Virus record (IMG/VR): IMGVR_UViG_3300044950_000921
Span: 1 to 35,766 of that record
Strand: one strand, 5' to 3'
Length of the DNA: 35,766 nucleotides
Source of the DNA: a virus
Below the pieces are notes generated by a model. That model searched no databases, was not told where the DNA came from, and saw nothing but the letters and a program-made list of their open reading frames with translations. Below are positions 9,198 through 9,561 of this stretch, piece by piece. The position numbers and the translations under genes are program-made. How positions within the stretch are numbered: the stretch's first letter is position 1; every line of letters begins with the position of its first letter.

Positions 9198-9561
9198 TGG
9201 TGGAACTGGCGGGAATTGAACCCGCGTCCAAAATACTTTTCAAATAGGAGGATTTTATAATCATAGTATTATTTTAATTCTTTTTAACAACTCCTAATAC
9301 CAGATTTGTTAAACATATTTTAAATATTTTTTAAAGAAATATAACTTTTCATAACCAATTAATTCTACTTTAAAATTTCTCGAATTAATATTGACATCTG
9401 CGAACTGTTAAAAATAGATGTGTCTTAATAACAGGTTGACTAAGCTGCGAGAGCTAAATTATTGTCATAAGGTATTTTTTAATAGATTATTAAAGAGGCC
9501 AACTATCATCCTCCGATTAACTCCAATTTAATACATATAATGTCGAATGCCTTACAGTCCC
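9198..9561 (-). ncRNA. ssrA: Transfer-messenger RNA (tmRNA)
   Basis: The 3' end reads GGACGCGGGTTCAATTCCCG then CCAGTTCCACCA, the classic tmRNA T-arm, acceptor and encoded CCA. The 5' end (GGGACTG, then GGCATTCGACA) pairs with it over seven base pairs. The length, 364 nt, is that of a standard one-piece bacterial tmRNA. The tag reading frame at about 9460-9428 ends PYDNNLALAA followed by TAG; the C-terminal LAA is the usual protease signal. The resume codon cannot be fixed by eye. tmRNA with SmpB rescues stalled ribosomes and tags the unfinished peptide. The 5' end is only 8 bases after the stop of the upstream gene, so it is probably cut from a joint transcript by RNase P; a terminator follows the 3' end. 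Confidence 0.95.

Follow-up and report, generated by a model that had tools for sequence, protein, structure and literature searches.

The analyzed DNA comes from an uncultivated virus in IMG/VR; the 35.8-kb fragment (35,766 nucleotides, hereafter called the window) carries a full-length one-piece tmRNA gene (ssrA) of 364 nt on its minus strand. Judging from its sequence, we consider it probable, at roughly 0.85, that the gene encodes a functional tmRNA that performs ordinary trans-translation during infection. Terminase, tail tube, baseplate, and lytic tail proteins are encoded in the window, and its source is a tailed phage. Mildly new are the resume codon of the tmRNA, UAU, and the finding of a second, distant neighborhood of tmRNA, TROVE gene, and YrlA-like RNA.

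Identification of the tmRNA gene and its tRNA-like domain

The Rfam model RF00023 matched the gene along its entire length (model positions 1–374 of 374) with 88.9 bits and an E-value of 2e-33, nearly twice the curated cut-off of 47 bits. ARAGORN likewise called a one-piece tmRNA, and its ends, the 5' end at 9561 and the 3' CCA end at 9198, were identical to those of the RF00023 match. The original prediction of a full-length phage tmRNA at 9198–9561, for which these two programs had been suggested as a check, was thus borne out to the exact coordinates, with the gene on the minus strand, and the sequence comparison confirms a full-length one-piece member of RF00023. The following features define the gene and its tRNA-like domain:

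9198–9561, minus strand: one-piece tmRNA (ssrA), 364 nt (full-length RF00023 match and ARAGORN)
9555–9561, minus strand: 5' strand of the acceptor stem, GGGACUG, which includes G3 of the G3·U pair (7-bp pairing with nt 354–360)
9202–9208, minus strand: 3' strand of the acceptor stem, CAGUUCC, pairing with GGGACUG
9198–9201, minus strand: discriminator A and encoded CCA (read from the sequence)
9209–9225, minus strand: T-arm, GCGGG UUCAAUU CCCGC (RF00023 alignment and stem listing)

The 7-bp acceptor, T-arm, CCA end, and length that had been claimed were all recovered by the stem listing and RF00023. These elements, and the lack of an anticodon stem, are those of a tmRNA tRNA-like domain. The third acceptor pair is G3·U358, the equivalent of G3·U70 in tRNA-Ala. 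A G·U pair at the third acceptor position is an alanine identity element for alanyl-tRNA synthetase, and charging of the window tmRNA with alanine is predicted on this basis.

Pseudoknots

The prediction was to fall if pseudoknots were missing. It stands on this point, as each of the four pseudoknots (PK1–PK4) has a first stem that can be drawn in the window tmRNA, as can helices 2 and 5:

9480–9514, minus strand: PK1, GGAGG/CCUCU and UGAUAG/CUAUUA (RF00023 alignment, stem listing, and shuffles)
9424–9458, minus strand: helix 5 (H5) around the tag stop codon, GCAG/CUGU and UUUAG/UUAAG (stem listing)
9375–9421, minus strand: PK2, ACAUCU/AGAUGU and a weak second stem, not significant alone
9314–9375, minus strand: PK3, UUUUAAAG/CUUUAAAA and a second stem, not significant alone
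9264–9313, minus strand: PK4, UUUAACAA/UUGUUAAA and UGGUAUUA/UAAUACUA (stem listing and shuffles)

The stems of PK1 span nt 48–68 and nt 54–82 of the tmRNA. Summed over the eight pseudoknot stems, the score was 56 compared to 39.2 ± 3.2 (maximum 51.5) for 500 dinucleotide shuffles, none of which (0/500) reached the observed value. As the second stems of PK2 and PK3 had no individual significance against shuffles, and the segments for this test were picked after inspection, the score is supporting rather than independent evidence. By the stem listing and the joint score, the window tmRNA has PK1–PK4 of RF00023. The single-strand minimum free energy of the tmRNA was no better than that of shuffles (z 0.05), which is expected because the folding program cannot form pseudoknots.

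Tag reading frame and resume codon

9440–9469, minus strand: tag frame UAU GAC AAU AAU UUA GCU CUC GCA GCU UAG, encoding YDNNLALAA-stop (nt 93–122; RF00023 resume column)
9469–9467, minus strand: resume codon UAU (RF00023 resume codon column)
9473, minus strand: A at position −4 of the resume codon, the equivalent of E. coli A86, which sets the frame (A in 186/186 tmRNAs)

Genetic work on E. coli tmRNA established that A86 is essential and fixes the frame; translation resumes at the codon four bases downstream of it (PMC2481249). In the tmRNAs that we compared, from loci fetched mainly by the tag pattern [N/D][N/D]N, L or F, A, L or F, AA, stop in bacterial genomes and viral contigs, the base at −4 was invariably A (186/186) and the base at −5 was U in 148 of the 186. 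Where the RF00023 alignment sets the resume codon, the window reads UA-CCU-UAU; from this and the invariant A, the tag is Y-DNNLALAA-stop. The tag frame lies 3' of PK1 and its stop codon inside H5. When the tag region was shuffled 200,000 times, a frame read from nt 93 had LAA-stop at its end at a rate of 4 per 100,000. The tag ending DNNLALAA with a TAG stop had therefore been predicted in the right frame and is written in full, including the resume residue, as (Ala)-Y-DNNLALAA. Among the sequences compared, its LALAA end is commonplace: [N/D][N/D]NLALAA tags are spread over many phyla, and the relaxed tag pattern retrieved at least 119 stretches from each collection (bacterial genomes and viral contigs), mostly tmRNAs. 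The exact DNNLALAA-TAG pattern had no match in viral contigs.

ARAGORN reports another tag, GLFNNLLKNTL (nt 62–97), which was rejected because its frame begins inside PK1 and off the RF00023 resume column. UAGUU-GGC, which mimics the usual UA-N3-resume context, is the probable cause of this call. ARAGORN tag calls can err where PK1 holds such a mimic, and phage tag catalogues built on ARAGORN alone therefore need checking.

The resume codon UAU (Tyr) was found in none of the 181 sampled tmRNAs whose tag could be placed (109 one-piece, 72 two-piece), all but three of which resume at GCN or GGC (two GAC, one GUU); for only three more tmRNAs of the sample did ARAGORN give no tag that fits the search pattern. 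The rarity of UAU is perhaps somewhat overstated, as the sample was chosen by tag pattern and its resume starts were assigned by ARAGORN, possibly with a bias to GCN/GGC-type codons. The window tmRNA thus departs from the GNN resume codon (Ala or Gly) that is customary, not defining, for RF00023. Since the resume codon of Helicobacter pylori is GUA, Val codons work in E. coli, and some replacements function (PMC2862035), UAU is unusual yet not disqualifying. An unusable resume codon had been named as a second ground for abandoning the prediction; UAU, although atypical, codes for an amino acid and is correctly in register.

Genomic context

9570–9983, minus strand: putative small ORF upstream of the tmRNA, with its stop codon 8 nt upstream of the tmRNA 5' end and a likely start at ATG 9923 after AAGGAT
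10083–10111, minus strand: candidate sigma-70-like promoter, TTGAAA-17-TATAAT with TG (11/12 consensus matches, not evidence of function)
5606–7147, minus strand: TROVE/Ro60-like protein, 513 aa (PF05731, E 3e-15; PHROG 850 (phrog_850), E 6e-38)
7453–7566, minus strand: YrlA-like RNA (RF02553, 36.3 bits, E 6.6e-6 in a 1.5-kb search)

The small ORF, for which no Pfam or PHROG match was obtained, is probably co-transcribed with the tmRNA; its position 8 nt upstream and the promoter-like site at 10111–10083 make a short operon of ORF and tmRNA likely. On the downstream side the tmRNA precedes another small ORF. Six tRNAs were found in the window by ARAGORN, and the tmRNA lies about 6 kb from the tRNA cluster. 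Two NUMOD4/HNH homing endonucleases (730–1443 and 3124–3648, minus strand) adjoin tRNA genes. No SmpB is encoded in the 35.8-kb fragment, so that trans-translation would have to use the host SmpB or an unseen phage gene. Searches with the tail-tube and Ro60 proteins gave no close relatives in IMG/VR, and the terminase relatives (35–39% identity; L275–L280, fragments) had neither a tmRNA above cut-off nor a TROVE gene.

The tmRNA had also been described as lying beside Ro60 and Y-like RNAs, and a wider RNA/ribosome quality-control set had been suggested. The TROVE gene is indeed present. Its product has a vWA_Ro60 match just below cut-off (E 5e-6) and, with TROVE plus vWA, is predicted to be a Ro60/YrlA RNP protein. 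Upstream of the gene, three YrlA-like matches scored 36.3, 23.7, and 23.0 bits versus an Rfam cut-off of 69; only the match at 7566–7453 is statistically convincing by E-value, and none reaches the Rfam cut-off. The Y-like RNAs are thus sub-threshold, with one significant. A jointly acting set was not upheld, with no SmpB in the fragment and proximity as the sole link. The idea of a linked set is not new, as a neighborhood of TROVE, tRNAs, and tmRNA is already annotated in Bacillus phage G, but its recurrence there makes the idea somewhat more plausible, and a linked phage RNA/translation island becomes testable by counting.

A separate observation concerns positions 8345–8100 (minus strand), which have very strong predicted structure (z −9.9 versus 200 shuffles) with three hairpins in a row. 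The first has a 23-bp stem around 8287–8223 and the last is followed by UUUUUU, terminator-like; CUCC/CCUCC motifs are single-stranded at four places in loops and linkers. The segment looks like a small RNA of a C-rich, anti-Shine-Dalgarno type. No other copy of the hairpin 8287–8223 was found in IMG/VR. It is unlikely, in our estimate, that the tmRNA, the Ro60 and Y-like RNAs, and this CUCC-exposing RNA form one co-expressed ribosome/RNA-handling island, in which UAU would be adaptive when Ala codons or the tmRNA of the host are disfavored.

Proposed function and alternative explanations

For the steps beyond domains, structure, frame, and tag, that is, expression, charging, SmpB use, proteolysis, and benefit, we infer the course of events from established tmRNA biology. 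The minus strand would be transcribed, probably as a short operon, from the promoter near 10083 through the small ORF and the tmRNA, and the tmRNA transcript would be trimmed at both ends. Charged with alanine via its G3·U acceptor, the RNA would bind SmpB, supplied by the host or by a phage gene outside the fragment, and SmpB and EF-Tu would bring it to ribosomes that have stalled on truncated mRNAs. Once the peptide has been transferred to Ala, translation would resume at UAU and add Ala-YDNNLALAA, a putative LAA-type C-terminal signal for ClpXP-like proteases, and normal termination at UAG would recycle the ribosome. The phage may profit in that ribosomes are kept free and truncated chains cleared while mRNA is degraded during infection, a benefit also proposed in the literature on other phage tmRNAs. 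The earlier claim of a working ssrA holds for a complete gene with a degradation-type tag; the gene is apparently working. Weighing against this reading are the absence of SmpB from the fragment, a resume codon that the 181 sampled tmRNAs do not share, the minimum free energy at shuffle level, and the poor second stems in PK2 and PK3.

Three rival readings, namely decayed capture, decoy, and ARAGORN's tag, are less likely than ordinary trans-translation. The first, which we hold to be quite improbable, is that the gene is a captured or decaying host ssrA, for example from a prophage using ssrA as attachment site, and has lost its function. The atypical resume codon and the weak second stems of PK2 and PK3 would be in line with decay, and phages and islands are known to integrate at ssrA (PMC9004378). 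However, the G+C content of the gene equals that of the phage (0.288 vs 0.294), and no integrase was found among the window proteins scanned, which comprised all but some small ORFs. The gene is also whole, with its 5' half, tag, and CCA intact, whereas attachment-site remnants are usually 3' fragments. No close bacterial tmRNA was present in the sample (best pairwise identity about 67–70%), and this, together with a weak grouping with phage tmRNAs (see below), gives no sign of a recent pick-up from a host.

Slightly less credible again is a competitor or inhibitor RNA that titrates host SmpB or alanyl-tRNA synthetase, or swaps the host tag, and so redirects trans-translation. Phage molecules consisting of the tRNA-like domain (TLD) only do exist, as in mycobacteriophage DS6A, where a tmRNA inhibitor was proposed (PMC4131195); Streptomyces phage BRock and two huge phages have matches of TLD-only appearance, and with UAU the window tmRNA departs from the resume codons usual in bacteria. 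Yet the window tmRNA has kept a full mRNA-like domain, a standard degradation tag, and the frame-setting A, none of which a pure decoy needs. That GLFNNLLKNTL is the real tag is scarcely believable: ARAGORN calls it and UAGUU-GGC resembles a UA-N3-resume context, but a start inside PK1 would demand PK1 unfolding, does not fall on the RF00023 resume column, and yields no LAA-type end, unlike the downstream frame.

Comparison with known tmRNAs

Phage tmRNAs were reported in 402 of 18,146 phage genomes, with 133 distinct structures (PMC9004378), and are known in mycobacteriophages and phage G (PMC4131195). Huge phages have them too and, taken as a group, also encode SmpB (PMC7162821). As phage tmRNAs are documented and the neighborhood is also found in phage G, our finding adds to a known kind and does not define a new one; the window tmRNA is one more well-preserved and mostly ordinary case.

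In a tmRNA tree, which was not relied on for host inference, the window tmRNA groups weakly with those of phage G and huge phage LR756508 (support 0.77 and 0.84, long branches), that of phage G being weakly the nearest (support 0.77). Phage G (gp553) likewise has a one-piece tmRNA in a tRNA-rich stretch, about 70% identical to the window tmRNA over aligned positions, with a different tag, AKLNITNNELQVA (ARAGORN). The TROVE ribonucleoprotein gp540 is annotated about 3 kb from it, and TROVE, a YrlA-like match, tRNAs, and tmRNA lie within about 7 kb; the two TROVE proteins share 25% identity (E 2e-23, one-to-one comparison). The tmRNA of phage G sits within the tRNA cluster, whereas that of the window is about 6 kb from its tRNAs. 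The YrlA-like RNA of phage G, at 405233–405319 (L361:1234–1320), is sub-threshold with 36.2 bits and lies about 2 kb upstream of gp540, where no feature is annotated.

Several further phages showed features of their own. For the tmRNA of LR756508.1 (92434–92880; L016:1501–1944), the ARAGORN tag is implausible; placing the frame by the A at −4 would yield a tag as long as about 36 residues, GVNNADYESAGFTAEDFAQMDGESLYHGSERKPAAV. The closest Ro60 match to the window is in huge phage LR745206.1 (L035), which encodes a complete SmpB at 332958–333383 (E 7e-53); no full tmRNA was found in LR745206. Short RNAs of 81–137 nt above the tmRNA cut-off, L018:1501–1581 (Streptomyces phage BRock, which also carries a Ro60 gene), L027:1501–1612, and L028:1501–1637, seem to hold the tRNA-like domain only and in this resemble the TLD-only tmRNA of DS6A, a possible tmRNA inhibitor (PMC4131195).

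Mycobacteriophages of the Bxz1 type (cluster C1) and Wildcat are likewise listed as encoding tmRNAs (PMC4131195), which would differ from that of the window in host and sequence. Methylophilales phage Melnitz has its own complete ssrA, as the window does (PMC9004378), but the Melnitz and marine tmRNAs are two-piece, permuted, and riboswitch-linked, in contrast to the one-piece window tmRNA. With the bacterial one-piece tmRNA (RF00023) the window tmRNA shares the domain plan, the frame-setting A, and the LALAA tag end; it differs in resuming at UAU instead of GCN or GGC, in its low G+C content, and in being encoded by a phage.
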